Of a stretch of DNA of 40,291 nt, positions 15,515-30,214 are shown piece after piece. Both the position numbers and the translations under genes were made by a program. The stretch is from contig NZ_NHYM01000015.1 of the NCBI RefSeq assembly GCF_003288815.1, forward strand, positions 1-40,291, written 5' to 3'. The DNA is from Helicobacter sp. 16-1353 (GTDB lineage Bacteria; Campylobacterota; Campylobacteria; Campylobacterales; Helicobacteraceae). The notes beneath the pieces were generated by a model that saw only the letters and a program-made list of their open reading frames with translations, made no database searches and was not told the origin of the DNA. Position 1 is the stretch's first letter. Each line of letters opens with the position of its first letter.

Positions 15515-15524
15515 GAAAGAATCT

Positions 15525-16349
15525 ATGCAGACAAAACGAGCGAATAAATACGGCTTTTGCTTTGGTGTAAAACGGGCGATTAAACTTGCCGAGCAGAATA
15601 AAAACGCCACTACAATCGGTCCGCTTATCCACAACCAAAAGGAAATCGATAGATTAAAGGTCGATTTTGGTGTGAATGTAGAGACGAATATCGGGGCAAT
15701 TGAGGGAGATTCAAGTGTGATTATTAGAACGCACGGAATCCCCAAAAATGACCTAAAAGAGCTAAAAAATCGCAATGTAAATATTATCGATGCTACCTGC
15801 CCTTTTGTTACAAAACCGCAAAAAATATGCGAGGAGATGAGTAAGGAGGGCTATGAAATCATCATTTTTGGCGATGAAAATCACCCTGAGGTAAAAGGCG
15901 TAGTTAGCTACTGCACGAGTCCTTGCCAAGTCGTCTTAGAAAAAGAGCAGATTAAAAATATCCATACGCACTCCAAAATCACGCTTATTTCTCAAACCAC
16001 TAAGAATGTTAGTAAATTTTTAGAAATCGCAAATTACTTGATTGAAAACTGCTATGAAGTGCGGATTTTTAACACTATTTGCAATGCTACTTTTGAAAAT
16101 CAGGAATCTGTTAAGATTCTAGCCCAAGAGGCGGATATTATCATCGTTGTAGGTGGAAAGCAAAGCTCAAACACCAAACAACTCCTAAATATCGCGCTTC
16201 AATACTGCAAGGATAGCTATTGTATCGAAGATGAAAAGGAATTGCAAAAAGAGTGGTTTAGTGGCAAAAAACTATGTGGGATAACCGCTGGGGCTTCCAC
16301 TCCTAATTGGATTATTGATAATGTGGAGAATATAATTAAGGAATTTTAG
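15525..16349 (+). CDS. ispH: HMBPP reductase IspH (LytB)
   Basis: 4-hydroxy-3-methylbut-2-enyl diphosphate reductase, the last enzyme of the MEP isoprenoid pathway, using a 4Fe-4S cluster. The three cluster cysteines are recognisable: Cys12 in Y-G-F-C-F-G-V, the Cys of D-A-T-C-P-F-V (about 92) and the Cys of N-T-I-C-N-A-T (about 187). T-H-G-I-P and H-P-E-V motifs are present, as is the terminal G-I-T-A-G-A-S-T-P. Length 274 is standard. It follows aroA by 10 bases, matching the pheS-pheT-aroA-ispH order I recall for H. pylori. rpsA, expected next, is absent here. Confidence 0.97.
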   Translation: MQTKRANKYGFCFGVKRAIKLAEQNKNATTIGPLIHNQKEIDRLKVDFGVNVETNIGAIEGDSSVIIRTHGIPKNDLKELKNRNVNIIDATCPFVTKPQKICEEMSKEGYEIIIFGDENHPEVKGVVSYCTSPCQVVLEKEQIKNIHTHSKITLISQTTKNVSKFLEIANYLIENCYEVRIFNTICNATFENQESVKILAQEADIIIVVGGKQSSNTKQLLNIALQYCKDSYCIEDEKELQKEWFSGKKLCGITAGASTPNWIIDNVENIIKEF

Positions 16350-16444
16350 TGTGGGTGCTCTATAGCTTATGCTTGGGTTGCATTACAAGCTGGAGATTTG
16401 CTTATAGCTTTTATCTCAAGGCATTTGTGCTAAATACTGAGTAA
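16349..16444 (+). CDS. Possible 31-residue hydrophobic peptide
   Basis: A GTG overlapping the last base of the ispH stop opens a 31-codon frame (V-W-V-L-Y-S-L-C-L-G-C-I-T-S-W-R ...) ending at TAA. It is hydrophobic and could span a membrane once. There is no clear ribosome site, and the position suggests either translational coupling to ispH or debris at a synteny breakpoint. Low confidence that it is expressed. Confidence 0.2.
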   Translation: MWVLYSLCLGCITSWRFAYSFYLKAFVLNTE

Positions 16445-16547
16445 CACAGCGGATTTTAAATATCAACATTGGCTGGTAGATTTTCTTATACAGAATTTAT
16501 AATGTTGATTTTATAAACTGCAAAAAGTAGGATTTTAAATTAACAAA

Positions 16548-16665
16548 ATTTAAGATTTGCAGTTATGGGATTCTGCTAATCATCGCAAATATACTTGTAA
16601 TTCCACTATTTTACCAACACCTCCCATTTAAAGATACGCTAGATAAAATCCTAAGTTTTATTTAA
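16548..16665 (+). pseudogene. Decayed 3' remnant of the array's B gene
   Basis: The DNA matches the 3' part of the two intact B genes (17041 and 17678). It has L-R-F-A-V as in the first copy, then, after a shift of frame, L-L-I-I-A-N-I-L-V-I-P-L-F-Y-Q as in the second, ending P-F-K-D-T-L-D-K-I-L-S-F-I and a stop at 16663-16665. About four bases are missing relative to the 17678 copy, breaking the frame, and no 5' half is visible. This shows the array once had at least one more unit. Most of the 397-base gap after ispH otherwise holds only short inverted repeats. Confidence 0.8.
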
Positions 16666-16688
16666 GTTGCATTTTGCTACAAGTAACG

Positions 16689-16717
16689 GATTATTATTGA
16701 TTTCATTAATAATAATC
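16689..16717. repeat. Inverted repeat before first A gene
   Basis: A 10-base arm GATTATTATT pairs with AATAATAATC across a 9-base loop, between the decayed B remnant and the A gene at 16747. There is no T-run after it, so it may be an mRNA leader hairpin rather than a terminator. Confidence 0.5.
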
Positions 16718-16746
16718 TAACTTAAATTTTCCATAAGGAGAATAAA

Positions 16747-17031
16747 ATGGCAAATAAAATTGCTAAAATTAAGCCAAACGAAAATCTGGGCGAGAATCTA
16801 GAATCCACAAAGCTAGAAACATATTTTTTACTAGCAAAATTCGCAGTATTTGCGGGTATTTTAGTAAAAATAGGGGAATATTTAGTTAATGAAACATTAA
16901 ATAGATTCAATGTTAATAAAGACAATAAGTATAAATTAGGATTCATTGGCTTTAGCATTACGCTGATATTACTACTTATCAATATGTTTAAGATAGGAAA
17001 TAATATAGAAACCGCAGAATCTAACCAATAA
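16747..17031 (+). CDS. Array protein A1: small two-helix membrane protein
   Basis: A 94-residue protein of unknown function. A polar N-terminus rich in Asn, Glu and Lys (1-25) leads to a first membrane helix (about 26-47), a short loop (48-65), a second helix (about 66-82) and a short acidic tail. Residues 7-59 are identical to those of A2 (17388), and the underlying 159 bases differ at only one, silent, position. The rest diverges. A good AAGGAG ribosome site precedes the ATG. B1 follows after 9 bases. The paired arrangement suggests a two-component membrane complex or a toxin/immunity-like pair; neither is shown by motif. Confidence 0.8.
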   Translation: MANKIAKIKPNENLGENLESTKLETYFLLAKFAVFAGILVKIGEYLVNETLNRFNVNKDNKYKLGFIGFSITLILLLINMFKIGNNIETAESNQ

Positions 17032-17040
17032 AGTTGGCAT

Positions 17041-17328
17041 ATGGATGGCGAACTTACCATAATGTCCTATGAGGATTATACGCTTCTTGTATGTGCCTTT
17101 CTTGCTGGTATCTGGTCGCTTTTTGCTATGTGTTGGGCGGAGCAAACTTTCTTTAGATTTACTATGAAAATATTTGCAAATATTCAAAATAAGCAGTTGG
17201 CGATGTTTTTAAGATTTGCAGTGATAACTTTTATTACGATAATTCTCGCAAATATATTTGCAATTCTATTTTTCTACGAAAGCCTCCCATTCAAAGATAC
17301 GCTAGATAAAATTTTGAGTTTTATTTAA
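17041..17328 (+). CDS. Array protein B1: small membrane protein
   Basis: A 95-residue protein with two predicted membrane helices (about 13-33 and 57-79) separated by a basic loop containing M-K-I-F-A-N-I-Q-N-K. The last 15 residues (S-L-P-F-K-D-T-L-D-K-I-L-S-F-I) are identical in B2 and nearly so in the decayed remnant, while the N-terminal half diverges. The ATG at 17041 has only a weak ribosome site; M-S-Y-E-D-Y at 17062 is an alternative start, as B2 has a similar internal M-T-Y-W-D-Y. It follows A1 and is probably co-translated. Function unknown. Confidence 0.75.
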   Translation: MDGELTIMSYEDYTLLVCAFLAGIWSLFAMCWAEQTFFRFTMKIFANIQNKQLAMFLRFAVITFITIILANIFAILFFYESLPFKDTLDKILSFI

Positions 17329-17387
17329 GTGGTATTTTGCTATAAGTGATAGATTTTTAATAATATTTTTATAAAAAGGAGCCAAAT

Positions 17388-17672
17388 ATGGCAAAGCAAG
17401 TTACAAAAATTAAGCCAAACGAAAATCTGGGCGAGAATCTAGAATCCACAAAGCTAGAAACATATTTTCTACTAGCAAAATTCGCAGTATTTGCGGGTAT
17501 TTTAGTAAAAATAGGGGAATATTTAGTTAATGAAACATTAAATAGATTCAATGTTAATAAAGACGGCAAATATCTATATGGAATCATTGGTTTTATTGCT
17601 GTATTATTTATGATATTTCTTAATGTGCGCGATATAAACGATAACATAGAAAGTGCAGAGATTAAAAAATAA
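17388..17672 (+). CDS. Array protein A2: paralogue of A1
   Basis: Second copy of the A protein, also 94 residues. Residues 7-59, covering the polar N-terminus, first helix and loop, are identical to A1. The second helix and tail differ (G-I-I-G-F-I-A-V-L-F-M-I-F against A1's L-G-F-I-G-F-S-I-T-L-I-L). The ribosome site is AAAAAGGAG. The near-perfect DNA identity against otherwise divergent flanks points to recent duplication or gene conversion. B2 begins 5 bases after its stop. Confidence 0.8.
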   Translation: MAKQVTKIKPNENLGENLESTKLETYFLLAKFAVFAGILVKIGEYLVNETLNRFNVNKDGKYLYGIIGFIAVLFMIFLNVRDINDNIESAEIKK

Positions 17673-17677
17673 ATTAA

Positions 17678-17968
17678 ATGGAAGCCGAACCTATAGTCAT
17701 AATGACATATTGGGATTATTTTCTCGCTGTTGTCGTTTTTTGGGGTTGTGCTTTTGGCTTTTTTATGTTGAATTGGCTACTTAGCCGTTGGCATAAATTT
17801 ACTGATAAGATGTTTGCAAATCTTAAAAACAAGCGATTGGCGGAATTTTTAAGATGGACACTTATAGGATTTGTTTTGCTAATCATCGCAAATATACTTG
17901 TAATTCCGCTATTTTATCAAAGCCTTCCATTCAAAGATACGCTGGATAAAATTTTGAGTTTTATCTAA
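17678..17968 (+). CDS. Array protein B2: paralogue of B1
   Basis: A 96-residue membrane protein. Its first helix (about 13-33, rich in Phe and Val) and following Arg/His/Lys loop differ strongly from B1, while M-F-A-N-L-K-N-K-R-L-A and the C-terminal S-L-P-F-K-D-T-L-D-K-I-L-S-F-I are shared. The start is ATG at 17678; an internal M-T-Y-W-D-Y start at 17702 is possible. It is the last complete member of the array; after it the sequence changes character and a 22-codon frame remains. Confidence 0.78.
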   Translation: MEAEPIVIMTYWDYFLAVVVFWGCAFGFFMLNWLLSRWHKFTDKMFANLKNKRLAEFLRWTLIGFVLLIIANILVIPLFYQSLPFKDTLDKILSFI

Positions 17969-18001
17969 AGCCAAATAACTATTTAAGGTAAGATTATACA
18001 A

Positions 18002-18070
18002 ATGAGTTGGAGTGAAATTCTGTGGTTTGCATTTATTTCATTTTACGACGCATTGCCTATTGCCAAATGA
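18002..18070 (+). CDS. Possible 22-residue peptide or truncated array gene
   Basis: An ATG with an AAGGTAAG ribosome-like site opens M-S-W-S-E-I-L-W-F-A-F-I-S-F-Y before a stop. It resembles the hydrophobic start of the B proteins (M-S-Y-E-D-Y ..., M-T-Y-W-D-Y ...) only loosely. It may be the stump of another array member or not a gene. The remaining bases up to 18150 hold nothing I recognise. Confidence 0.25.
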   Translation: MSWSEILWFAFISFYDALPIAK

Positions 18071-18150
18071 CATTTAAAAATCATCAATTACCTTTTTACC
18101 TCCTTAATAATATTTCTCTCACATTTTCCCATTTTTTTAGCAATAAATCC

Positions 18151-18156
18151 TATAAT
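18151..18156 (+). promoter_or_regulatory. Predicted -10 box for hemerythrin gene
   Basis: TATAAT lies 26 bases before the ATG at 18183, in AT-rich DNA, followed by an AAGGAG ribosome site about 5 bases before the start. This suggests an independent promoter for the hemerythrin unit. Confidence 0.55.
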
Positions 18157-18182
18157 ACAATTATTTTTGACAAGGAGAAAAT

Positions 18183-18620
18183 ATGCAAATTAGAGAATAC
18201 ATGATAAACGAGCATAGAGAATGCGATGAGATATTAAGTCAGCTTGAAGATGCGGTGATTAGCGGAGATTGGGGGAATGTGGGGGCGAAATTTAATGAGT
18301 TTAGAGATGAGTGTGAGCGACACTTTTTAGAAGAAGAGCAGGTGATGTTTGTGGAGTTTGAGGCAAAAATAGGTATTGCTGATGGTCCTACAAAGGTGAT
18401 GACAATGGAGCATAATATGGTGCGTGAGACGCTAAAAGAAATGCAAACCGCCCTAGAATCTAGCAATAAAGATAGAATGCTTGGTTTAATAGAATCTGTA
18501 ATGCTAATCCTCCAGCAGCACAATATGAAAGAGGAGCAAATGCTCTATAATATGGTGCAAATGCACTTAAGTGATAAAAATGACGAGATAATTAATAGAA
18601 TGAAAGAGATTAAGGTTTAA
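18183..18620 (+). CDS. Hemerythrin-like di-iron protein
   Basis: A 145-residue four-helix HHE-type protein. Candidate di-iron ligands are His11 (N-E-H-R), His47 and Glu51 (E-R-H-F-L-E-E), His77 (M-E-H-N) and His113 with Glu117 (Q-Q-H-N-M-K-E-E), the spacing of hemerythrin/HHE domains. Such proteins bind O2 or NO, or repair iron-sulfur clusters under nitrosative stress. The neighbours, a DUF2249 protein and a heme-copper-oxidase-like membrane protein, are the usual company of NO-response HHE proteins and support that reading. Cytosolic; no signal peptide. Confidence 0.88.
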   Translation: MQIREYMINEHRECDEILSQLEDAVISGDWGNVGAKFNEFRDECERHFLEEEQVMFVEFEAKIGIADGPTKVMTMEHNMVRETLKEMQTALESSNKDRMLGLIESVMLILQQHNMKEEQMLYNMVQMHLSDKNDEIINRMKEIKV

Positions 18621-18702
18621 GGAATCTTTGGGGATTTTTTAAAGTTTGTAAAAGGCGTAATTTGGGGCAATTTTTAAGTCTAGATTTTGTTTTTTGGCGT
18701 AA

Positions 18703-18812
18703 GATTCGGCGGGATTTTGTTGAAACCCGTATGGATTTAGATTCCACAGATTTTGCCGAATCTTGCTTTAGATTCCGCCTAGATTCCGCGAAGTTCCAAA
18801 ATTTAAGATTCC
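18703..18812. repeat. GATTC-dense intergenic tract
   Basis: The 208-base gap between the hemerythrin and DUF2249 genes carries repeated GATTC/GAATC, several as GATTCCGC or GATTCCAC, the same variants found inside nearby coding insertions. A short open frame through it reads Asp-Ser and Glu-Ser but has no ribosome site, so I treat it as repeat DNA. Confidence 0.75.
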
Positions 18813-18828
18813 ACATTTAGGGCAAAAA

Positions 18829-19278
18829 GTGAGAGAAATAATCAAAAATGTCGCACATTTAGAGCACCCCGAACCGCTGGAGATTATGACAAAAGCGATA
18901 GCAAATCTTAGAGATAATGAATATATAAAAATGATTCATAGAAAAGAGCCACTTCCGCTATATGAAATATTGAAAGCAAATGGCTTTTTCTACCACACGA
19001 TAAGTGCGGAATCTAGTGGCGATTTTAGAGCGAAATCTGTGGAATCTAAAATAAAATCCGCGGATTTTGTGGAGTCTAAATTGGATTTAGTTGAATCTGC
19101 GAAATCCATAAAGTTCGAACTAGATTCAGCGGAATCTACGGAATATAAATCCAGCAAACCAGTAGAATCTGCACTCAAATCCAACTCAATATGTTTAGAA
19201 AATGGCGAATTATTCCACATTTTCATCACCAAAGAAAGCAATAAAGAAAAATTATTGCAATTGCTCCCAAATTTATAA
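18829..19278 (+). CDS. DUF2249 protein split by a repeat-encoded insertion
   Basis: A 149-residue cytosolic protein. The N-terminal part fits DUF2249: H-P-E-P-L-E-I-M (about 13-20), then A-I-A-N-L, K-E-P-L-P-L-Y-E-I-L (about 40-49) and G-F-F-Y-H-T. The final strand (L-F-H-I-F-I-T) appears only near residue 130. Between them lie about 65 residues of Glu/Asp-Ser-Ala-Lys low complexity encoded by GATTC/GAATC repeats. DUF2249 domains occur with or fused to hemerythrin domains and are linked to NO and denitrification responses, matching the gene before it. GTG is used as start, with AGGG upstream. Confidence 0.72.
   Translation: MREIIKNVAHLEHPEPLEIMTKAIANLRDNEYIKMIHRKEPLPLYEILKANGFFYHTISAESSGDFRAKSVESKIKSADFVESKLDLVESAKSIKFELDSAESTEYKSSKPVESALKSNSICLENGELFHIFITKESNKEKLLQLLPNL
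19009..19169. repeat. GATTC/GAATC-dense tract inside DUF2249 gene
   Basis: Repeated GGAATCT, GTGGAATCT and GATTC units over about 160 bases are read mostly as Glu-Ser and Asp-Ser. The tract splits the domain before its last beta strand. Confidence 0.85.
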
Positions 19279-19297
19279 ATCTTACAAAGGAAATCAA

Positions 19298-20605
19298 ATG
19301 AATTTCAGTGGCATTTCCCTCCAGCAGTCGCCTCCGTATTTTGTAACGATAAAGTTTTTTATAACCGCTCCATTATTTTTGCTACTTTGTGGGATTCTGC
19401 TTATCTATGGGGATTTGGGCGGAAATGCAAGCGATTTTGCGATTTATAATTCTTTTAAATCTCTCGCATTTATGCACTCTATGACGCTTGGATTTATGCT
19501 ATTTTCGATGCTTGGGGCGTTACAGCAGATGCTACCAGTGCTTGGCGGGGTGAATATCAAATATGCCACAAGTTTCTCCCATCTCGCCTATTTTAGTGCT
19601 ATTTTTGGGAGCATGAGCGTGATTTTTGGCTTTAATTTTTCGATGACAAATCTGCTATTTTTTGGCTCTCTTATTATGCTATTTTCTGCGATTTTTTTCG
19701 CCTCTGTGGTAGTTTTTAAGCTTTTTAGGGCGAATTTTACGACCCACACGATAAAGGGCATGATAATTGCCACTATTTTTCTCCCGCTTGTGGTTTTTTG
19801 TGGCGTTTTGTTGGCTCATTTCTACGCATTTGGGGAGTTTTTTGGCGGAGTTTGGACGCTTTTAGCGGACTTAAACCCATTTGATTTTTTGCAAAATTTA
19901 CATGTCAAAAGTGCGATATTTGGCTGGATTTTCTTGCTTATTGTGGCGGTTTCTTATCAGGTGTTGCCTATGTTTTATGTCGCCCCGGATTATCATAAAA
20001 ATTTTAGGCGATTTTTTGTGCCTCTTACAGCTTTTATCGTAGTTTTATCGGCATTTTTTGATTTTTTTAGTCTTATTTTGCAAGTTTTGGCGATTATTTA
20101 TGGAATCTATAATATCCGCATTTTAAAGGCTCGCAAACGCAAAAACAGCATTGATACGACCATTCGATATTGGTATTTTGGGGCGATTTGCCTTATTTTT
20201 GGGGCGGTGGCTGGAATCTTAGATTATCTTTTGCCCCTTTTTGCGGACTTTAGCCACTCTAGCGACCAAAATAACACCCTAAACTTGCATTATATGAGCC
20301 TTTTTCTGCTTGTTTTTGGCTTTGGTGGGAGTGTGGTTAGCGGTATGCTATATAAAATCGTGCCGTTTCTAACTTGGTTTCACCTAAGTGCCACGGGGAA
20401 TTTCAGCATTCCAAGCATTAGGGAGATTATCAAGGAAAAATATATGTTCGCTCAATTTGCCCTGTATTGCGTCTTTATCGCCTCATTTGTGCTAAATCTT
20501 TATCTTGGATTTTTTTGGGTTTCTGGGGTGATTTTATCGCTTGGTGCCTTGCTACAGCTACTAAATCTAATTTTATCAATTAGGGTTTATCTTAGATTCC
20601 GCTAG
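19298..20605 (+). CDS. Heme-copper-oxidase-subunit-I/NnrS-like membrane protein
   Basis: About 435 residues with roughly twelve membrane helices. Conserved-looking His positions lie in helices: A-F-M-H-S-M-T-L-G-F (about 60), L-H-V-K-S-A-I-F-G-W (about 200), L-H-Y-M-S-L-F near 330 and T-W-F-H-L-S near 365. The pattern resembles the heme-binding histidines of CcoN/NorB-like or NnrS-type proteins. The start at 19298 is preferred over an upstream in-frame ATG at 19202, because AAAGGA precedes it and the upstream 32 residues would overlap the DUF2249 gene. With the hemerythrin and DUF2249 genes it suggests NO handling or sensing at the membrane. Confidence 0.7.
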   Translation: MNFSGISLQQSPPYFVTIKFFITAPLFLLLCGILLIYGDLGGNASDFAIYNSFKSLAFMHSMTLGFMLFSMLGALQQMLPVLGGVNIKYATSFSHLAYFSAIFGSMSVIFGFNFSMTNLLFFGSLIMLFSAIFFASVVVFKLFRANFTTHTIKGMIIATIFLPLVVFCGVLLAHFYAFGEFFGGVWTLLADLNPFDFLQNLHVKSAIFGWIFLLIVAVSYQVLPMFYVAPDYHKNFRRFFVPLTAFIVVLSAFFDFFSLILQVLAIIYGIYNIRILKARKRKNSIDTTIRYWYFGAICLIFGAVAGILDYLLPLFADFSHSSDQNNTLNLHYMSLFLLVFGFGGSVVSGMLYKIVPFLTWFHLSATGNFSIPSIREIIKEKYMFAQFALYCVFIASFVLNLYLGFFWVSGVILSLGALLQLLNLILSIRVYLRFR

Positions 20606-20611
20606 GCTATT

Positions 20612-21268
20612 ATGATAGAATCTAAAATGCAATATAAAATCACAAGAAAGCGTATAAAAAACATCATAATTAGGCTTGATAAATATGGTAATATCAAGGT
20701 TAGTGCTCCGTATTGGGCAAAGATTATTGATATTAATAATTTTGTAGAATCTAATAAGAATTGGATAGAAACTAGACAAAAAAAATTAATAAACAATATC
20801 CAAAGATATGAAAATGGCATAGAGATTTCATATTTTGAGCATAGATATATATTGAAATTAATGCCATATTCTAAAAGCAGGATTCTGCAAAATGGTAACT
20901 ATTTGGAGATTTGGACGCCAAATATTGATGATATAAATAAGATTGAAAAATTGGTGCTAAAGTGGTATATTAGTCAATCACAAGATTATATTGATTCTAT
21001 TATTTCTAAGTATGGCAATGCTATAAATAGAGATGTTTGCGGTATTAGATTTCGTAGAATGACTACGCGTTGGGGAAGTTGCAATGTTAGAAAAGCTACT
21101 ATCTCGTTAAATTCGATACTTTTTAGTAAGCCAAAGATTTGCTTAGAATATGTTCTATTGCATGAATTGGTTCATCTTATTCACGCAAATCATAGTAGGA
21201 AATTTTATGATGTTTTAGAATCTCTTATGCCAAATTGGCGTAAAATAAAAAATATTTTAGAAACTTAA
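20612..21268 (+). CDS. YgjP-type zinc metallopeptidase-like protein
   Basis: A 218-residue cytosolic protein of the YgjP/DUF45 (WLM-like) family. The signature R-W-G-S-C at 153-157 precedes the zinc motif H-E-L-V-H at 184-188, and His194 is a probable third ligand in H-A-N-H-S-R-K-F. Substrates of this family are poorly known. It begins 6 bases after the heme-copper-like gene. Its lower GC content makes it look like a different genomic layer from its upstream neighbour. Confidence 0.88.
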   Translation: MIESKMQYKITRKRIKNIIIRLDKYGNIKVSAPYWAKIIDINNFVESNKNWIETRQKKLINNIQRYENGIEISYFEHRYILKLMPYSKSRILQNGNYLEIWTPNIDDINKIEKLVLKWYISQSQDYIDSIISKYGNAINRDVCGIRFRRMTTRWGSCNVRKATISLNSILFSKPKICLEYVLLHELVHLIHANHSRKFYDVLESLMPNWRKIKNILET

Positions 21269-21279
21269 AAGGAGAAATT

Positions 21280-22032
21280 ATGGTTATTTTAGTTACAGGT
21301 GCATCTGTTGGGTTTGGAGCTGCGATTGCTAGGAAATTCGCAAAAGAAAATCACAAGGTAATAGCCCTAGCAAGGAGAGAGGACAAATTAAAAGAATTAC
21401 AAAATGAGTTAGGAAGTGATAAATGCCAGATAATTGCAGTAGATATTTGCGATACAAAGGCTGTTAAAAATGCGATAGATAATCTAAGAGATGATTTTAA
21501 AAATATTGATGTTTTGGTGAATAATGCTGGGCTTGCACTTGGCTTATCTAGAGCGTATGAAACGGATATTAATGATTGGGAGAGAATGATTGAGGTTAAT
21601 ATTTTATCATTGGTTCGATTAACTAGAATGCTACTTCCTAAAATGGTAGAAAATAAAAGCGGACATATTATCAATATAGGCTCTATCGCTGGGACTTATC
21701 CATATCCCGGAGGCAATATTTATGGTGCTACAAAAGCATTTGTAAAGCAATTTAGCTTGAATCTTAGGGCTGATTTATATGATAAAAGCGTAAGAGTTAC
21801 TAATATTGAACCGGGTCTTTGTGGCGGGAGTGAATTTTCCTTTGTGAGATTTAAAGGTGATAAAAATATGGTAGATGAGCTTTATAGAGACGCTAATCCA
21901 ATTATGCCAGAAGATATAGCGGAGGCTGTTTTCTGGGTTGCGACACAACCAAAACATGTAAATATAAATAGAATAGAAATGATGCCTACAACACAAGCTT
22001 CAAGTGCATTAAATGTTTATAAACATAAATAG
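21280..22032 (+). CDS. SDR-family NAD(P)-dependent oxidoreductase (YdfG-like)
   Basis: A 250-residue classical short-chain dehydrogenase. The nucleotide motif T-G-A-S-V-G-F-G is at 6-13, N-N-A-G at 81-84, and the catalytic set is Ser135, Tyr148 and Lys152. The C-terminal P-E-D-I-A-E-A-V-F-W and N-R-I-E-M-M-P segments resemble YdfG-type 3-hydroxy acid (serine/allo-threonine) dehydrogenases. The ribosome site is AAAGGAG. It ends at a strong palindrome shared with the convergent GtrA gene. Confidence 0.9.
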   Translation: MVILVTGASVGFGAAIARKFAKENHKVIALARREDKLKELQNELGSDKCQIIAVDICDTKAVKNAIDNLRDDFKNIDVLVNNAGLALGLSRAYETDINDWERMIEVNILSLVRLTRMLLPKMVENKSGHIINIGSIAGTYPYPGGNIYGATKAFVKQFSLNLRADLYDKSVRVTNIEPGLCGGSEFSFVRFKGDKNMVDELYRDANPIMPEDIAEAVFWVATQPKHVNINRIEMMPTTQASSALNVYKHK

Positions 22033-22037
22033 CTATT

Positions 22038-22061
22038 CCTAGAATCTTTAAAGATTCTAGG
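22038..22061. terminator. Perfect palindrome between convergent genes
   Basis: Two 12-base arms, CCTAGAATCTTT and AAAGATTCTAGG, abut as a perfect 24-base palindrome, built from the window's recurrent GAATC/GATTC word. It lies 6 bases after the SDR stop and overlaps the last codons of the convergent gtrA-like gene. A bidirectional terminator is the natural reading. Confidence 0.7.
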
Positions 22062-22440
22062 ATTTATTTCTAAATGCGTAAAGTTTGCTTAATATATATC
22101 CACTTAGCGTATAGAAAACCCCAGCTATAATCTGTGAAACATACTCGTTTATTAAGAAATATCGATATGAGATTATTAAAATAATTAGATTTATTGCATA
22201 AGCAATTCCCATCGATATTAAGAATCTAAAAAATTCTTTTCTAATGTGATTATTGCTTTTAAAAGTAAAATATTTATTTAATATAAAAGATAAGATAATG
22301 CCACATAAATATCCAATAAAATTTGCTATTTCAGGCAATAAACCATAATACATTAGGATAAAAATTATTCCAAATCCAAATAATGTATTTATAATACCAA
22401 CTATTAAATATTTGATAAATGAATATTTTAATATTTTCAT
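22057..22440 (-). CDS. GtrA-family membrane protein
   Basis: A 127-residue protein with four predicted membrane helices. It opens with the family segment F-I-K-Y-L-I-V-G-I-I-N-T (8-19) and has N-K-Y-F-T-F-K near 55-61, both typical of GtrA. Members are thought to help flip polyprenyl-linked sugars across the inner membrane for cell-surface glycosylation. No glycosyltransferase is adjacent. It is transcribed divergently from the radical SAM gene, from an AT-rich 88-base gap. Confidence 0.9.
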   Translation of the reverse strand: MKILKYSFIKYLIVGIINTLFGFGIIFILMYYGLLPEIANFIGYLCGIILSFILNKYFTFKSNNHIRKEFFRFLISMGIAYAINLIILIISYRYFLINEYVSQIIAGVFYTLSGYILSKLYAFRNKS

Positions 22441-22528
22441 AAAATCCCTTAATTTAAGTAAAATAAAATTCTACTTAAATTTTTAGGTTAGAATCTATGT
22501 TGTATTTAAAATTATTTTATTAAAGTAA

Positions 22529-23374
22529 ATGATGAAATTTCAAAAAATTTATATAGAAATAAGTGATATTTGTGGTTTAGACTGCTCATTTTGTCCAAGT
22601 ATGAAAAATACACGCGGGAAAATGCCACTTTGGCTTTTCCAAAAAGCATTAAAAGATTGTAGTTCTTATACAAAATTAATTGCTTTGCATATATTAGGCG
22701 ACCCGCTAAAAATGCCAAATATTAGGGAGTATTTAGCCATTGCGACGAATTATAATCTAAATGTTGAGATAACTACAAGCGGGGTTTATTTAAACGAATT
22801 TGAGTTTTTATTAAAATCTCCTATAAGACAAGTGAATATCTCACTTGATGCAGTAATGGAGATAAAATCATCTCATTTAAGAAAGCAAATATTTAGAAAG
22901 ATATTTGATTTTTGTCGCACTAGAATGGAATCTCAAAGTGAGGTTTTTATTAATCTACGAATCCAAAAAAGAGCACAAAATAAAGAATTATTAAATATAT
23001 TACAAGAAGAATTTAAAATGCCAATAAGTTTAGATTCTAATACTAGGATTGGCAAAAAAACAATCATCGTCGTAAGAGAGCCATTTTTATGGAATCTAGA
23101 ATCTGCTAAATCTCATCATATAAAACATACAAAAGGATTCTGTTATGCACTACAAACGCATTTTGGAATCTTGGCAAATGGCGATGTAGTTCCTTGTTGT
23201 ATTGATGTTGGGGGAAATATTATTTTAGGAAATATTGCTAAGGATTCTATTGCTACAATTTTTAATTCTAACCGCACAAAATCAATGATTAAAGGGTTTA
23301 AGAGTGGAATTATAGTAGAATCTTTTTGTATAGATTGTTCTTTTAGAAAACAATTTGATTGGTTTATTGTTTAA
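22529..23374 (+). CDS. Radical SAM protein with SPASM-like C-terminus
   Basis: A 281-residue radical S-adenosylmethionine protein. The cluster motif C-x3-C-x2-C is at Cys15, Cys19 and Cys22 (I-C-G-L-D-C-S-F-C-P). The C-terminal part has N-G-D-V-V-P-C-C and, near the end, C-I-D-C-S-F, a short SPASM/twitch-type arrangement for extra clusters, with G-N-I between them. SPASM enzymes often modify peptides, but no peptide precursor is visible nearby and the substrate is unknown. The start may be at the first or second of two adjacent ATGs. Confidence 0.85.
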   Translation: MMKFQKIYIEISDICGLDCSFCPSMKNTRGKMPLWLFQKALKDCSSYTKLIALHILGDPLKMPNIREYLAIATNYNLNVEITTSGVYLNEFEFLLKSPIRQVNISLDAVMEIKSSHLRKQIFRKIFDFCRTRMESQSEVFINLRIQKRAQNKELLNILQEEFKMPISLDSNTRIGKKTIIVVREPFLWNLESAKSHHIKHTKGFCYALQTHFGILANGDVVPCCIDVGGNIILGNIAKDSIATIFNSNRTKSMIKGFKSGIIVESFCIDCSFRKQFDWFIV

Positions 23375-23381
23375 ATAATGT

Positions 23382-23400
23382 TATAATTTGACGATATAAT
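23382..23400 (+). promoter_or_regulatory. Predicted promoter of the Hof-type gene
   Basis: Two TATAAT boxes (23382-23387 and 23395-23400) precede a GGAGG ribosome site at 23424-23428 and the ATG at 23436. This is the best-formed expression signal in the window and fits a strongly expressed porin. Confidence 0.6.
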
Positions 23401-23435
23401 AAAATAAATTTCAATTTTTAAATGGAGGAATCCCT

Positions 23436-24587
23436 ATGAACAAAAAAATAATATGTGGCTCGTTTGCTCTTGCTGGTTTATTTACTTTTGCTCAAGCAGC
23501 AGAATTTGACTTATATGGGCATTTTGGTGCAGCAGGACAAAAAAATACTAATTACAACGATAGCGATTATGCTGGAGCTAGTGCTTCTATTGGGTTTAAT
23601 GTATTTTTCACCAATGGAATCTCAATTGGATTAGGTGGTTGGGCTGCAATTCCTATATATGAAAATGTAAAAAATAATGCAGACCAAATCTATAAAGATA
23701 TTTTTGTATTAAGCGATGCTTATTTTGCCTATAATGGCGATATATTCAATATAGCACTTGGAAGATATGATACAAATAATATGGGATATGATTGGTTTAG
23801 CGGACACAATCAAGGTGTATCTTTAGGCTTCAATATAGGGAATTTTCTAAGTATTTGGGGATTGTATTCACATCAACAAGCATTCCAATTCCAACGATTT
23901 AATAGAGAAACATCTAGCCAAATTAATGCTTTGTGGAACTATAAAGGTCATTATGGATATTATAAAACAAATGAAGGCGGTGGTTTAAAAAGCAATAAAG
24001 AGCATTTTGCGGCAGCTGGTGTTGATGTAAAAATTGGTGAAGTATTTAGAATAACACCTTATGTTTATTTTGTAACAAATAACCTTACTGCTCCGGGTGG
24101 AACAGCCAAATTAACACTAGGAAGGCATAATGATTTATATTCTGATACGACATTAAAATATACACATGTAAGCCAAGTGGGTGCTCCAGATGGACATTTA
24201 CTTTTAGCTGACCAAGAGTTTGGCTATAGCTGGTTTAGAATAGGTGGTGGTTACTATAAGACAATAGATGCAGGTGCTGGAAGATTGACAGATTTTGGTG
24301 ATGATAGCCGATTCTATGGTGGAATCGTTGAAGCAAATGTTAATAATAGAGCAAGTGGCGGATACTATGGCTACGACCAATCAACTTGGTATGTATTTAC
24401 AGGTGCTAGACACGAAATGTTTAAATTCGACCTTTTATATGCAAATGGAGGCTATAAAGAGTTCTCAGCATTGCTTTCAATTACTTTATTTAAACATTTA
24501 GATTTTGGTGCTGGGTATGTTGATTTAGCAAATATAGAGAATAATAGAAGAAATTATGTTACAGGATTTGTTAAAGCAATTTGGTAA
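23436..24587 (+). CDS. Hof-type outer-membrane porin
   Basis: A 383-residue beta-barrel protein with a classical signal peptide (1-21, ending A-Q-A-A) and C-terminal strand ending V-K-A-I-W. Gly/aromatic-rich strands run throughout, e.g. D-L-Y-G-H-F-G near 25 and A-L-G-R-Y-D-T-N-N near 107. It is related in order and motifs to the His-rich protein at 8593 but lacks the histidine clusters. Hof/HP_OMP_2 proteins are Helicobacter-specific porin-like proteins. It is monocistronic: strong promoter before, hairpin terminator after. Confidence 0.88.
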   Translation: MNKKIICGSFALAGLFTFAQAAEFDLYGHFGAAGQKNTNYNDSDYAGASASIGFNVFFTNGISIGLGGWAAIPIYENVKNNADQIYKDIFVLSDAYFAYNGDIFNIALGRYDTNNMGYDWFSGHNQGVSLGFNIGNFLSIWGLYSHQQAFQFQRFNRETSSQINALWNYKGHYGYYKTNEGGGLKSNKEHFAAAGVDVKIGEVFRITPYVYFVTNNLTAPGGTAKLTLGRHNDLYSDTTLKYTHVSQVGAPDGHLLLADQEFGYSWFRIGGGYYKTIDAGAGRLTDFGDDSRFYGGIVEANVNNRASGGYYGYDQSTWYVFTGARHEMFKFDLLYANGGYKEFSALLSITLFKHLDFGAGYVDLANIENNRRNYVTGFVKAIW

Positions 24588-24602
24588 TTTGATATTATAA
24601 AC

Positions 24603-24633
24603 GCTATAAAGAAAGATTAGCTTTCTTTATAGC
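24603..24633 (+). terminator. Hairpin terminator after Hof-type gene
   Basis: The 13-base arms GCTATAAAGAAAG and CTTTCTTTATAGC pair perfectly around a 5-base loop, followed within 8 bases by a T-rich run. It sits 16 bases after the Hof-type stop and may also serve the convergent cytochrome gene. Confidence 0.85.
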
Positions 24634-24665
24634 TACTTCTCTTTTTAATCTTTTAATTTAAGGCT

Positions 24666-25019
24666 TCAATTTTTTGGTGGATTTAGGAATATATATAAAC
24701 TCACCATTTCAGATGCAGTTAGATTATATCTCGGCATAAATCCCTTTCCAGACTTTAGTCCTTGCTCGAATCTTGCGAATTTTAATCCAGTTATTTTTGG
24801 TGCAATGATTGGTTTTAATTTACCATTTTGTTTTATGTAGCTTATAATTGCCCCTTCTCCATTTTGTCCGTGGCATTTTATACAGCCGATATTTCGTGGA
24901 TTGTTATACAATGCTTTTCCATATTCATATTGCGTTAAAAACTCTTTTCTTTCTCCATCGGCATTGAGCATAGGAAATGAAAAAATTATCAAACAAAATA
25001 TTGATGAAATCTGTTTCAT
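24666..25019 (-). CDS. Small periplasmic c-type cytochrome
   Basis: 117 residues from the preferred start at 25019, which gives a signal peptide (M-K-Q-I-S-S-I-F, cleavage near L-N-A-D); an upstream in-frame ATG at 25061 would put 14 charged residues before it. The heme motif is C-I-K-C-H at 46-50 and Met95 in F-M-P-R-Y is the likely distal ligand. It resembles single-heme class I cytochromes such as c553 that carry electrons in the periplasm. Partner enzymes are not adjacent. Confidence 0.88.
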   Translation of the reverse strand: MKQISSIFCLIIFSFPMLNADGERKEFLTQYEYGKALYNNPRNIGCIKCHGQNGEGAIISYIKQNGKLKPIIAPKITGLKFARFEQGLKSGKGFMPRYNLTASEMVSLYIFLNPPKN

Positions 25020-25184
25020 ATGTTGAACCCTTTGAAATCTTTTGGTAGATTTATATATCAATAAAACTTATAATAATTTATTTCGTGCAATTCTAATTGA
25101 TTTTTTTTAAAATAATGCAAATAATTCAAAAATATTTTTATAAATATGGACTGAGCAGAATCTAAATTTTATTTAAAAATTCAT

Positions 25185-25190
25185 TATAAT
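25185..25190 (+). promoter_or_regulatory. Predicted -10 box for folD operon
   Basis: TATAAT lies 37 bases before the TTG start of folD, in the 208-base divergent region between the cytochrome gene and folD. A GAATC-containing segment precedes it near the -35 position. An AAGAGG ribosome site is at 25215-25220. Confidence 0.55.
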
Positions 25191-25227
25191 ACGAATTAAT
25201 AATTTATACAAGGTAAGAGGCTAGATT

Positions 25228-26109
25228 TTGGATAATAAAATTTTAGATGGACGAGCATTAAGCAAAGTTATAGAAGAGAGATTAACTTTAGAAGTAAATG
25301 AGATTAAAAGTCAAGGCATTTTCCCCAAGCTATGCGTGGTTTTAGTAGGCGATAATCCAGCCTCTCAAAGCTATGTAAAGATGAAAGCAAATGCCTGTAA
25401 GCGTGTGGGGATAGAATCCCAGCTTTTGCATTTTGGGGAAAATACGAGCCAAGATGAGCTTTTAGCCACGCTAGATTCCCTAAATAGCGATAAAAGCGTG
25501 AATGGCATTTTAGTCCAGCTCCCGCTCCCAAGCCACATTGATACGAATCTAATCTTAGAAAAAATCGCTGTTGAGAAAGATGTAGATGGATTCCACCCTT
25601 ATAATGTGGGGCAGTTGCTAATTGGCGGTGATTTTGCCCCAGATTCTCTAAATGCGTGTTTTGCTCCAGCTACGCCACTTGGCGTTATGTTGCTTTTGAA
25701 GCACTACAATATCGATGTTAGGAGCAAAGATGTAACCATAATCGGCGCTAGTAATATCGTAGGGAAGCCCCTAAGCTCCCTTATGCTAAATGCTGGGGCG
25801 AGTGTGAGTATCTGCCACATATTAACTAAAGACTTAAAAGCCCACACGATAAATGCAGATATCATCTGCGTTGGCGTCGGCAAGGTCAATTTGCTAACTA
25901 GCGATATGATAAAAAATGGTGCGATTATCATTGATATTGGTATTAATAAGCTTCCTAACGGGGCAATCGTGGGCGATGTGGATTATGAAAATGTCGCAAA
26001 AAAATGCTCTTTTATCACGCCAGTTCCCGGCGGTGTGGGTCCTATGACGATTAGTGCCTTACTCCAAAATACCATCAAATCCGCCAAAATCCAAAACCAA
26101 AGGCTATAA
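25228..26109 (+). CDS. folD: Methylene-THF dehydrogenase/cyclohydrolase FolD
   Basis: Bifunctional one-carbon enzyme interconverting methylene-, methenyl- and formyl-tetrahydrofolate. Motifs: S-Y-V-K (about 49-52, catalytic Lys region), V-Q-L-P-L-P, D-V-D-G-F-H-P, T-P-L-G-V, the NADP site G-A-S-N-I-V-G-K-P and the terminal P-V-P-G-G-V-G-P-M-T. Length 293. The start is TTG at 25228, 7 bases after AAGAGG. Its stop abuts the lepB ATG directly. It opens a plus-strand block in the order I recall for H. pylori folD-lepB-M50-rpiB. Confidence 0.96.
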   Translation: MDNKILDGRALSKVIEERLTLEVNEIKSQGIFPKLCVVLVGDNPASQSYVKMKANACKRVGIESQLLHFGENTSQDELLATLDSLNSDKSVNGILVQLPLPSHIDTNLILEKIAVEKDVDGFHPYNVGQLLIGGDFAPDSLNACFAPATPLGVMLLLKHYNIDVRSKDVTIIGASNIVGKPLSSLMLNAGASVSICHILTKDLKAHTINADIICVGVGKVNLLTSDMIKNGAIIIDIGINKLPNGAIVGDVDYENVAKKCSFITPVPGGVGPMTISALLQNTIKSAKIQNQRL

Positions 26110-27111
26110 ATGAAGTTCTTACGCTCAATCTACCGCTTTTCGACCACTTGGGTTGGCACGATAATTATCGTCTTGCTTGTGATATTTTTCATCGCCCAAG
26201 CCTTCATAATCCCAAGTCGCTCAATGGTAAATACCCTATACGAGGGCGATATGCTCTTTGTGAAAAAATTCTCATACGGGATTCCAATCCCTAGAATCCC
26301 ATGGGTAGAAATCCCCGTTTTCCCAGATATTAATGATAACGGACATATTATAGAGGGAGAGCGACCAAAAAGGGGCGAGATAGTGATATTTATCCCGCCA
26401 CATGTGGAAAAAACCTATTTTGTCAAACGCACATTTGCCACTGGTGGCGATGAGGTCATTATGGCAGAAGATGGGCTGTATCTGCGTCCAGCTGGGGGCG
26501 ATAGCGAGATAGAGGCACAATTTGGCGAGGCAGAGACTAAGATAATTATGGGGAAAAAGTTTATCCACAATCCATATATGAATAAATATGCTGGAATCCA
26601 CTACGGAAGCGAGCCTGTAGCCTATGAGCTATTAAATAAATTCGCACTTCATAACGCCGGGGCGATGAGTGCATTTAGCGAGAATGGCGAGGTTTATTTC
26701 TATTATAAGGTCGAGGACGACCACTTTTTTATGGTTGGGGATAATCGCGATGGGAGCGAAGATTCCCGTTTTTGGGGGAGTGTGGCGTATCGCAATATCA
26801 TTGGCTCTCCGTGGTTTATCTACTTTAGCCTAAATTTACAAAATAGCGATGAATCTAAACTAGATTCTAAAAATCTCTATAAAATCCGCTGGGAGCGAAT
26901 GTTTAAAGGGGTTGAAGGCATAGAAAAACTAGCTATAAAAAATGCGGAATCTGGCAAGTTTAAAGAATCCGGAGAATCCGCGAATTTCGGCGAACTTGGG
27001 GAATCTAGGAAATCTGCGGAATCTACGAATCTTAGAGATTCCGGCAAATCTATAGACCCAAACTCTAAAGAATCCAAAATGCAAGATTTTATGGATTCTA
27101 ATCCTAATTAA
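26110..27111 (+). CDS. lepB: Signal peptidase I with low-complexity C-terminal tail
   Basis: Type I signal peptidase that cleaves exported preproteins at the outer face of the inner membrane. An N-terminal membrane helix (about 12-34) leads into P-S-R-S-M-V with nucleophile Ser38, then F-V-K-R with general-base Lys106, and box E as G-D-N-R-D-G-S-E-D-S-R. The catalytic domain ends near residue 280. About 50 further residues are Glu/Ser/Gly/Lys-rich, encoded by GAATC/GATTC repeats, and are absent from ordinary LepB. The tail should be periplasmic or fold back; its role is unknown. Confidence 0.94.
   Translation: MKFLRSIYRFSTTWVGTIIIVLLVIFFIAQAFIIPSRSMVNTLYEGDMLFVKKFSYGIPIPRIPWVEIPVFPDINDNGHIIEGERPKRGEIVIFIPPHVEKTYFVKRTFATGGDEVIMAEDGLYLRPAGGDSEIEAQFGEAETKIIMGKKFIHNPYMNKYAGIHYGSEPVAYELLNKFALHNAGAMSAFSENGEVYFYYKVEDDHFFMVGDNRDGSEDSRFWGSVAYRNIIGSPWFIYFSLNLQNSDESKLDSKNLYKIRWERMFKGVEGIEKLAIKNAESGKFKESGESANFGELGESRKSAESTNLRDSGKSIDPNSKESKMQDFMDSNPN
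26947..27098. repeat. GAATC/GATTC-dense tract at lepB 3' end
   Basis: At least eight GAATC/GATTC units in about 150 bases are read mainly as Glu-Ser or Asp-Ser, forming the extra tail of LepB. Confidence 0.85.
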
Positions 27112-27131
27112 AAAAATGTAAAAGTAAAAAA

Positions 27132-27779
27132 ATGGATATAAATATCATCAATATTATTGCGATGTTTATCGCCCTTTTGGTGGCAATTATCGGGCATGAG
27201 ATTATGCATGGATATTTAGCGCTTTATTATGGTGATAATACCGCAAAACTCTTGGGGCGACTAAATATAAATCCAATTAGGCACATCGATATAGTCGGCT
27301 CAATCATCTTGCCACTGGGACTTTTTCTGCTAAATGCGCCATTTTTATTTGGCTGGGCGAAGCCAGTCCCAGTAAATATTCGCCAAGTTATAAACAATGG
27401 CGGATATACCGCTGCAATCGTGGTTTCACTGGCTGGAATTGCGTATAATTTGACCTTAGCATTAATCGCCGCAATTTTAATAAAAATGGCGATAGTCCCA
27501 CCAAATGGGCTGTTTGGCGCGGTTTTCTACACGCTATTAATAAACCTTGTGATTTATAATGTAATCTTGGCGGTTTTTAATCTCTTACCAATCCCGCCAC
27601 TCGATGGCTCCCAAGCACTAGGCTATTTATCGCTAAAGCTAAATAGCTCGGCAATACCGCGCTTTTTCAATAAAATTGAGCGATTTGGAATCTTGATTTT
27701 AATGGGGATTTTGCTATTTTTAGGGCAGTTTTTATTCGTGCCAATAAGGGGCTTAATCAACATTTTACTAGGTGCATAA
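27132..27779 (+). CDS. M50-family (site-2-protease-like) membrane metallopeptidase
   Basis: A 215-residue polytopic inner-membrane protein. The zinc motif H-E-I-M-H is at 22-26 in the first helices and the second ligand motif N-L-L-P-I-P-P-L-D-G is near 150-159, as in small M50B proteases. Such proteases cut within the membrane, but the substrate is unknown. It follows lepB by 20 bases and precedes rpiB, matching the H. pylori block. Confidence 0.92.
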   Translation: MDINIINIIAMFIALLVAIIGHEIMHGYLALYYGDNTAKLLGRLNINPIRHIDIVGSIILPLGLFLLNAPFLFGWAKPVPVNIRQVINNGGYTAAIVVSLAGIAYNLTLALIAAILIKMAIVPPNGLFGAVFYTLLINLVIYNVILAVFNLLPIPPLDGSQALGYLSLKLNSSAIPRFFNKIERFGILILMGILLFLGQFLFVPIRGLINILLGA

Positions 27780-27809
27780 TGCATTCAAATTTGTTTAAAA
27801 GGGGTTTAA

Positions 27810-28388
27810 ATGACTTGTATTATCGGTAGCGACCACGCTGGGCGGAATCTAGCAAATGAGATTGTGGAGTTTTTAGCGGAGTTTGAACCAAAAGAGGCGG
27901 ATTTGAAAATAGATTCTAGTTTGCAAATAGATTCCTTGCAAAACAAGATTAAAATTATTAAATTTATCCCAGAATCTGGGCTTAAGGTGGATTATCCGGA
28001 TTTTGCAAAACTCGTATGCGAGGAAGTAAAAAAACGGAATCTAGAATCCAGCAAGATTCAATCGCAAAATACAGAATCTAAGAATCTAGATTCTGCGGAT
28101 TTGAGCGGAGAATCTCCCAAATTAAATGCATTTGGAATCTTGGTTTGCGGAAGTGGCATTGGAATGGAAATTAGTGCAAATAAATGTAGCGGAATTAGGG
28201 CGGCAAACTGCGTAAATGAATATATGGCAAAATACGCTAGGCGGCATAATAATGCGAATGTGCTATGTTTAGGAGAGCGGATTGTGGGCGTTGGGCTGGG
28301 GCTAGACATCGTGGAGGCATTTTTAAATGCCGAGTTTGAGGGCGGTCGCCACGAAATTCGAGTAGATAAGATTAATTTATTAGATTAA
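27810..28388 (+). CDS. rpiB: Ribose-5-phosphate isomerase B with internal insertion
   Basis: Pentose-phosphate isomerase interconverting ribose-5-P and ribulose-5-P. N-terminal G-S-D-H-A-G-R carries the conserved Asp8-His9, then V-D-Y-P-D-F, V-C-G-S-G-I-G with the catalytic Cys (about 112), R-A-A-N-C and the C-terminal A-R-R-H-N-N-A-N. At 192 residues it is about 40 longer than typical. The excess lies in two low-complexity stretches (about 29-58 and 75-103) rich in Ser, Asp, Glu and Lys, flanking the V-D-Y-P-D-F segment and coded by GATTC-rich DNA. Confidence 0.93.
   Translation: MTCIIGSDHAGRNLANEIVEFLAEFEPKEADLKIDSSLQIDSLQNKIKIIKFIPESGLKVDYPDFAKLVCEEVKKRNLESSKIQSQNTESKNLDSADLSGESPKLNAFGILVCGSGIGMEISANKCSGIRAANCVNEYMAKYARRHNNANVLCLGERIVGVGLGLDIVEAFLNAEFEGGRHEIRVDKINLLD
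27912..28114. repeat. GATTC/GAATC-dense tract inside rpiB
   Basis: Two groups of GATTC/GAATC units flank the V-D-Y-P-D-F codons. They coincide with protein segments that typical RpiB lacks. Confidence 0.82.
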
Positions 28389-28395
28389 TTTCAAG

Positions 28396-29211
28396 ATGAC
28401 AAAATTTTCTTTTAGCAAAGAAGCAAAAAATTATTTAGTTTATTCTCAACTCCAAAATAAGATTGCAAAAGATTTACTTTCGAAATCTATGAATAAAGAT
28501 ATTAAAAGAATATTAGATTTAGGCGCAGGAAGTGGCAATATAGCTAGAAATTTGACATATAATATTGATTATTTCTTAGGAATCGATAGTGCGGAATCTA
28601 TGCTTTTATTGCATCCTACAAACCTATCAAATATCAAGCTTTTAGAGCTTAGGAAAATGGATTTTGAGGATTATGAATTTAGCGAAAAATTTGATTTAAT
28701 AATCGCCTCCTCCTCGCTCCACTGGGCGAAGAATCTAGAATCTATTTTTCAAAAAATCGCAGATTCTGCATTCCAAAACAAGGGAGATTCTAAAGCGGAA
28801 TCTATACTTAAAAATGTGGAATCTAAAGCAGATTCCACATTAGATTCCACGCTAGATTCCACCCCAAATGACCACAAAAATCCGGCAAATCCAAAACTTG
28901 CCTTTAGCTTTTTTACTGCTAAAAGCTTGGAAACTTTGCATAATTTCCTAGGCACGAAATCGCCACTAAGAAGCTCTTTTGAGATTGAAATCCTATTGAA
29001 AAAGTATTTTATTGGCGAGATAGAAATCCAAAAGATAACAAAAACTTTTGATAATAAAAATGACTTATTGGCACATTTGAAAAATAGCGGTTTGCTTGGC
29101 GGTGGGAATCTCCCCTTTAGAGCGAAAAAAAAGCTAAAATTCGATATTCCATTTTTGGAGCTTTCCTATGAAGTTTTATTTTTCATCGGGGAAGCGAAGC
29201 AAAAAAATTAA
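28396..29211 (+). CDS. BioC-like malonyl-ACP O-methyltransferase with insertion
   Basis: A 271-residue SAM-dependent methyltransferase. The opening [10 protein letters not shown] and Q-L-Q-N-K-I-A fit the BioC start; motif I is [10 protein letters not shown] (about 41-50), followed by L-G-I-D-S-A-E-S and [17 protein letters not shown] resembles the BioC segment after the core. BioC methylates malonyl-ACP to start pimelate synthesis for biotin, fitting the presence of bioD. A GATTC-encoded stretch (about residues 114-160: D-S-K-A-E-S ..., T-L-D-S-T-L-D-S-T) interrupts the fold between strands. An alternative is another small-molecule methyltransferase. Confidence 0.72.
28731..28859. repeat. 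GATTC/GAATC-dense tract inside bioC-like gene
   Basis: I count five GATTC and four GAATC in about 130 bases, including two consecutive 12-base units reading S-T-L-D. It encodes the extra loop. Confidence 0.85.
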
Positions 29212-29227
29212 TAAAAAAGGTAGAAAA

Positions 29228-30214
29228 TTGAGTAAAAAAGCGGTGTTTTCGGGCATTCAGCCCACTGGCAATATTCATCTTGGGAATTATTTGGGGGCGA
29301 TTAGGAACTGGGTAAATATGCAAGATTTGTATGAAAATATCTTTTGCGTGGTGAATTCCCACGCTATTACCATTCGCCAGAATCCAGCCGAGCTGCGTGA
29401 AAAAACGCTAGATTTAGCCTGTATGCTGGTGGCGTGTGGGATAAGCCCGGAGAAATCGAGCCTTTTTATCCAAAGCGAAGTGGATTTTCACCCCGCACTA
29501 GCGTGGATTTTAGATTGCAATATTTTTATGGGCGATATGAGTAGAATGACGCAGTTCAAGGATAAATCGCAGAAAAATCCTAAAAATATCAATGTGGGGC
29601 TTTTCAACTACCCCGCGCTTATGGCAGCGGACATCTTGCTATATCAAGTCGATTTTGTCCCAGTGGGCGAAGACCAAAAGCAGCATATCGAGCTAACGCG
29701 TGATGTGGCGATGCGATTTAACCGCGATTTTGGGGAGTGCTTTAAGGTGCCCGAGCCACTTATTTTAGAATCTGGAGCTAGGATTATGGGGCTTGATGAC
29801 CCAAATTCCAAGATGAGTAAGTCTGCCACGGGGAAAAATCACGCTATTTTCTTGCTAGATTCCCCGGATATTATTGCTTCAAAAATCAAAAAGGCTACGA
29901 CGGATTCTAATAGCGAAATCGTCTTTGATAAGAGCCGAGCGGGGCTTTATAATCTCCTAAGTATCTATGAGATTTTAAGCAAAAAAGATAGGGGGAGCAT
30001 TGAAGCTGAATTTAATGGCAAGGGCTATGGGGTCTTTAAAAATGCCCTTTCTGAGGTCGTCATAGAGAGCCTAAAGCCCATTAGAGAATCTTACTTGCGA
30101 CTAAAAAGCAACGAGGATTATATCCGCAAAATCCTAAACGAGGGCTTAGAGAGCGTAAAGCCCAAAGCCGAAGCAACCTATAATAGGGCAAAAGAGCTGA
30201 TTGGGCTGGTGTGA
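29228..30214 (+). CDS. trpS: Tryptophanyl-tRNA synthetase
   Basis: Class I synthetase charging tRNA-Trp. From TTG 29228 the protein is 328 residues and begins [14 protein letters not shown], the normal TrpS N-terminus; the HIGH-like signature is N-I-H-L-G-N-Y-L-G and the KMSKS motif appears as K-M-S-K-S. An in-frame ATG at 29168 lies inside the preceding gene and would add 20 basic residues of no known role, so I prefer the TTG, which has AAAAGGT upstream. It is not in this block in H. pylori as I recall it. Confidence 0.93.

Follow-up and report, generated by a model that had tools for sequence, protein, structure and literature searches.

RGAWTCY, a highly iterated palindromic word in Helicobacteraceae, and the hairpins made from it at gene ends

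Word palindromes in the window

The window, that is, the whole stretch of 40,291 nucleotides analysed (contig NZ_NHYM01000015.1 of Helicobacter sp. 16-1353, hereafter the host genome), contains the 26-bp perfect palindrome TCCTAGAATCTTTAAAGATTCTAGGA (22037..22062, no strand), in which two RGAWTCY words are inverted around TTAA. It lies between two convergent genes, the upstream one encoding an SDR (short-chain dehydrogenase) protein (21280..22032, + strand; PF00106, E 5.8e-54) and the opposite one a GtrA-family membrane protein (22057..22440, - strand, ending at 22057; PF04138, E 4.5e-25), whose TAG stop sits within the right arm of the palindrome. The original prediction described here a 24-base palindrome at gene ends, CCTAGAATCTTTAAAGATTCTAGG (22038-22061), which is indeed perfect and extends to the 26 bp given above; because the right arm holds the GtrA stop codon, its location at gene ends is correct for the SDR and GtrA genes alike. 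The element folds with -15 kcal/mol on either strand (z of -3.9 and -4.3) and scores terminator-like on the + strand, with a stem of 11 bp and the tail TTTATTTC. With its stable stem, T-rich tail and position behind a stop codon, it has the pattern of an intrinsic terminator and is a predicted terminator. Like the inverted-repeat (intrinsic-like) terminators, it folds well and lies between convergent genes, whereas a terminator role accounts for a tiny share of the RGAWTCY words. The 18-mer AGAATCTTTAAAGATTCT occurs only 3 times in the 1.9-Mb genome, and therefore the exact element was rejected as a repeat family.

The second element consists of the 12-base arms AAGATTCTAATC (39710..39721, + strand) and GATTAGAATCTT (39755..39766, + strand), which are exact reverse complements as had been predicted, with a second, G+C-rich stem (GGGGA/TCCCC) nested between them. 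This element (39710-39766) folds with -28 and -26 kcal/mol on the two strands (z of -5.6 and -4.8). It belongs to a word-rich intergenic stretch with many GAATC/GATTC (39600..39766, no strand), downstream of a DUF285 repeat gene that lies at the end of the contig (39782..40282, - strand); the DUF285 family is best known from Mycoplasma. The composition of both palindromes from AGAATCT/AGATTCT words proved exact, and the high density of the word in the window was borne out by 270 occurrences of GAATC/GATTC against 87 +/- 8 in dinucleotide shuffles. These 270 GAWTC sites of the window (1..40291) stand mostly in the RGAWTCY context and are both genic and intergenic; AGAATCT alone is found 100 times against 8.4 expected.

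Two 94-aa reading frames of the window, 16747-17031 and 17388-17672, carry most of their words at matching offsets, an apparent local gene duplication. At 30328-32300, two genes of D12 (Dam-type) adenine methylases stand next to each other in tandem.

Abundance and context of the word

The word statistics were obtained from about 1.02 Mb of the host genome (a 53% sample of 1.9 Mb), with the gene calls made by our own simple caller. The enriched unit is RGAWTCY, a 7-bp near-palindrome or palindrome with a W centre, reading TRGAWTCYA at its strongest; its 5,264 copies in 1.02 Mb correspond to one per 194 bp. Relative to the dinucleotide expectation in the same 1.02 Mb, AGAATCT is enriched 10.5-fold (2511 vs 239), GGAATCT 10-fold (1510 vs 151), AGAATCC 5.6-fold and GGAATCC 4.2-fold, while TGAATCA is depleted and single substitutions in the core drop to about 1-fold. 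With the proteins held fixed, RGAWTCY is 4.3-fold above synonymous-codon shuffles, and it is enriched on both strands and in every reading frame.

The density of RGAWTCY is 7.0/kb in intergenic DNA vs 4.8/kb in genes, and 4191 of the 5264 words (80%) lie within genes; they become sparser at start codons and over the final 30 bases of genes and rise to 8.5/kb just past stops. The word also marks the proteins, with Asp-Ser (GAT TCN) as the most over-represented dipeptide of the host proteome (1.75-fold); among the remaining genera sampled, the same dipeptide reaches 1.2-2.1-fold in most of those rich in the word, the g5 sample standing at 0.95, and 0.73-1.08 in those poor in it. The spacing of intergenic words is clustered, 4.3-fold at 7-12 bp and about 2.5-fold out to 60 bp, and an even spacing, also looked for, was not seen. 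The clusters fall in little-constrained stretches, in coding linkers and intergenic DNA alike, and the rRNA operon has long stretches free of RGAWTCY. The restriction-modification genes are not depleted in the word (3.7 vs 4.4-fold), and a few islands are low. Two such word-poor islands, L039:11864-16926 and L057:14152-17791 (pab-type genes; type I HsdM/HsdS), are perhaps recent arrivals.

Inverted pairs at gene ends

For the predicted excess of inverted word pairs at gene ends, the word windows were shuffled among intergenic places in 60 simulations, with a position within 80 bp counted as near a stop. No excess of inverted order was observed among neighbouring intergenic words (at 11-20 bp apart: AT 54, TA 48, AA 68, TT 74), and stems with arms of at least 7 were at chance overall in the intergenic DNA of the 1.02 Mb (51 vs 50.8). 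However, the long perfect stems near stops numbered 13 vs 4.2 +/- 2.1 with an arm of at least 9, and 10 vs 1.9 +/- 1.3 with an arm of at least 10, each value being reached in 0 of the 60 simulations. As these stems exceed chance, inverted pairs do surpass expectation behind genes, and the prediction is partly supported, for the long perfect stems near stops, but not for an orientation bias or for short arms. In the relative G114, 7 vs 1.9 such stems were counted over all intergenic DNA, with a weaker difference near stops (3 vs 1.1), and the samples from other genera were too small for judgement. The long word stems near stops concern roughly 1% of genes and no more than a few percent of the words between genes; inverted word pairs are thus rare in the Helicobacter genome, in contrast to Neisseria, where inverted pairs of the DNA uptake sequence (DUS) occur in high numbers (PMC3630211). 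The palindromes at gene ends, a small real set, are a by-product: ordinary hairpins of terminator-like form, made from whichever word abounds.

Turnover of individual sites

The host genome and G114 were compared over 134 kb of aligned sequence at 72% identity. The identity within the words was 72% vs 73% in their flanks, so that the words are conserved no better than the flanks and site-by-site purifying selection was rejected; the retention of the word class was 33% vs 14-28% for the better-sampled control palindromes. Individual sites therefore turn over rapidly while a pressure across the whole genome maintains the density, and under such a pressure a turnover equal to that of the flanks is expected. 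Neither a single-change neighbour specifically depleted as a 'source' of the word nor the mutational halo of decayed one-off copies, expected for an uptake word, was found. The abundance of RGAWTCY is probably kept up by a pressure that bears on the DNA itself rather than on RNA, protein or individual loci.

Distribution across the family and the order

The 8-mer GGAATCTA was counted against a control in 121 genomes of the family; for the order, counts of RGAATCTA were taken from 398 genomes. The host genome contains 997 copies of GGAATCTA vs 84 of the control; the enrichment peaks at 36-fold in G114, with a median of 3.2-fold in the 62 tabulated genomes outside the genus g2. Within g2, which we infer to be the H. 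pylori group, the 8-mer is at or below the control in 34 of 34 genomes (median 0.35, maximum 0.63). The word is strong in 9 of the 13 genera of the family, whereas g8, g11 and g13 have it weakly or not at all, and the preferred flanks depend on the genus, being mostly the A-flank in g4 and g5 and TAGAATC followed by A or T in g6 and g8. The highest absolute density is that of G042, with 16,584 AGAATCT in 2.7 Mb. Among the 398 genomes of the order, the RGAATCTA signal is limited to the family, with weaker values in individual genomes from f2 and f5 and mostly near 1 elsewhere. RGAWTCY is, with certainty, a strong, family-restricted, palindromic and highly iterated word.

The H. cinaedi plasmid pHci1 (NC_017762.1) is as rich as the chromosomes (AGAATCT 91 vs 9). 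None of 198 viral loci, taken irrespective of host, included a word-dense contig of chromosomal density, which is a weak test. The plasmid pHci1 (L309) contains three annotated T6SS amidase (Tae4-family) effector genes among mostly hypothetical genes.

Uptake machinery and self-recognition of DNA

The PilC/GspF family (T2SSF, PF00482) was found in 85 of the 86 family genomes outside g2, with the lone exception being 67% complete, and in 0 of the 34 genomes of g2. In the host genome, the PF00482 gene belongs to an operon with the genes of a secretin, PilB and PilMN-, PilO- and PilP-like proteins, the last three labels being read from size, order and topology, not from family matches. The two-state match between the word and PF00482 across genera is the main support for a role of RGAWTCY in DNA uptake, and this match agrees with a published account that limits ComB/ComH uptake to H. 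pylori and the two relatives nearest to it (PMC13395361). Pilus-type (Cts) uptake in C. jejuni accepts only DNA bearing the methylated short palindrome RAATTY (PMC8468864), and because this member of the same order reads a methylated R...Y palindrome as a self mark, a self-recognition role is plausible for RGAWTCY. The two cases differ in that the mark of C. jejuni is the methylation of a common site (PMC8468864), whereas the RGAWTCY site is itself over-represented and is not tracked by the methylases examined here.

Accordingly, it is tentatively proposed that RGAWTCY is kept abundant by self-recognition in DNA uptake through a pilus-type machine. The putative pressure would act through a type-IV-pilus or Cts-like machine, with the word-rich fragments being taken up and recombined more often, by which the word would spread; where two words came to lie near each other, inverted, behind a gene, a few pairs might have been extended into terminator-like hairpins. 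With somewhat more reserve, it may be suggested that the enterohepatic-type Helicobacteraceae use a palindromic self word, the densest known, read by pilus-type uptake, and that, on switching its mode of uptake, the genus resembling H. pylori gave up the word together with the machine.

The hint at an uptake word in the original prediction thus gains from the genus-level match with pilus-type uptake genes and loses by the clustered spacing of the intergenic words and the richness of pHci1, which equals that of the chromosomes. Several further findings speak against uptake: the g2 contrast reflects a single event in evolution, each genome of genus g11 has two to four PF00482 matches and yet no word, g13 and f2 are weak, the restriction-modification genes are not depleted and the mutational halo is missing. 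No uptake or competence experiment on a word-bearing species was found in the literature searched. The known uptake words are, to our knowledge, not palindromes. The DUS of Neisseriaceae and the uptake signal sequences of Pasteurellaceae resemble RGAWTCY in the thousands of copies of a single short word, both genic and intergenic, in the restriction to a family with variant forms between genera, in the hairpins from inverted pairs behind genes and in the co-occurrence with a type-IV-pilus-like machine. However, they are asymmetric 9-12-mers, whereas RGAWTCY is a palindromic 7-mer, clustered, rare in inverted pairs and at full density on a plasmid, whose uptake role is putative; its density also exceeds that of the most densely repeated DUS found in reports, 5,918 copies in 2.4 Mb (PMC3630211).

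Also counted in favour of the uptake proposal, VirB4 was matched in only 4 of 16 word-rich genomes and not in the host genome. In the search for mobile elements, terminase as well as VirB4 matches were located.

Methylation and other explanations

The main rival, possible but rather unlikely, is that a methylase with a linked repair or recombination process creates and keeps RGAWTCY, as proposed for HIP1 (GCGATCGC) in cyanobacteria, where such palindromes are accompanied by methylases (PMC4390886). RGAWTCY is found at hundreds to thousands of copies per Mb across the clade, as are the highly iterated palindromes, and its about 5,200 per Mb in the host genome lie above the 300-2700 per Mb of HIP1; as with HIP1 and other such cyanobacterial words, it is a dense palindrome throughout the chromosomes of a clade, with variant forms in some genera and loss in some lineages. 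The palindromic shape, the sharp borders of the word, the equal density on pHci1, the clustering in little-constrained stretches and the missing halo would all suit such a process, and GANTC is methylated in H. typhlonius (PMC4705304). Unlike HIP1, RGAWTCY is an odd-length, A+T-rich palindrome with a W centre, and no associated methylase was recognised among the families surveyed. Thus, the RAMA domain of the CcrM/HinfI type is absent from the host genome, which rejects a GANTC methylase of this type as the writer; the D12 methylases (PF02086) are patchy among the word-rich genomes, being absent from G113, G088, G102, G100 and G069; and the widely shared orphan-like N6_N4 methylase (215 aa) next to dprA, present in 47 of 120 genomes, is absent from the word-rich G114, G103, G081 and G042 and does not track the enrichment (p 0.55). 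These results make the methylation model less likely among the methylase classes surveyed. Conversion from a depleted neighbour by mismatch repair was also rejected, since none of the neighbours shows a specific depletion of the kind expected of a 'source', and the only depleted ones are words under the general avoidance of GATC/GASTC.

The 215-aa methylase gene of the host (L074:1495-2142) adjoins a dprA-like gene (L074:272-1069), is about 70% identical across nine genera and has 52% identical relatives on Campylobacter plasmids; it seems to be mobile and associated with competence genes.

Less probable still is that RGAWTCY is the binding site of an abundant, family-specific chromosome-organising protein, such as a nucleoid or replication/segregation factor. 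The palindrome with its central W and the clustered sites would suit the cooperative binding of a dimer, and the word is alike on both strands, but the protein is hypothetical, individual sites are not conserved and the rRNA operon has its long word-free stretches. That the word became common through making transcription-termination hairpins is very improbable: the excess of long word stems near stops and the raised density just past stops would fit, but 80% of the words lie within genes, neighbouring pairs have no inverted-order bias and a genome has only a few dozen stems, so that terminators were rejected as the main cause. That the word merely follows from codon usage, amino-acid content, an AT-rich composition or the avoidance of restriction sites is hardly credible, even though the host genome strongly avoids GATC, GGCC, GTAC and GCGC, because the word stands 10-fold above the dinucleotide and 4.3-fold above the synonymous-codon expectation and is more enriched in noncoding DNA, and a positive excess this large is not producible by avoidance.

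RGAWTCY, with only 7 bp, recurs about 5,000 times per Mb and visibly alters proteins, which places it among the strongest signals of short words in bacteria; no earlier report of it was found in the literature searched. If it serves self-recognition in uptake, as tentatively favoured here, it would be, as far as known, the first uptake word in the phylum recognised by sequence alone, would explain how the non-pylori Helicobacter restrict gene exchange to kin and would offer a natural experiment on the origin and loss of such words. If it is instead akin to HIP1, RGAWTCY would add an independent example from beyond the cyanobacteria and would help to settle a question standing since the description of HIP1, which reportedly dates from 1995.

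Among other short words of the host genome, strong avoidance is seen genome-wide for GATC (54 vs 8335 expected) and likewise for GGCC, GTAC, ACGT, GCGC and GATATC, which points to many restriction systems, past or present; GACTC/GAGTC stands at 0.28-fold genome-wide. Homopolymer C/G tracts are in excess (CCCCCCC 337 vs 24), which suggests phase-variable genes.
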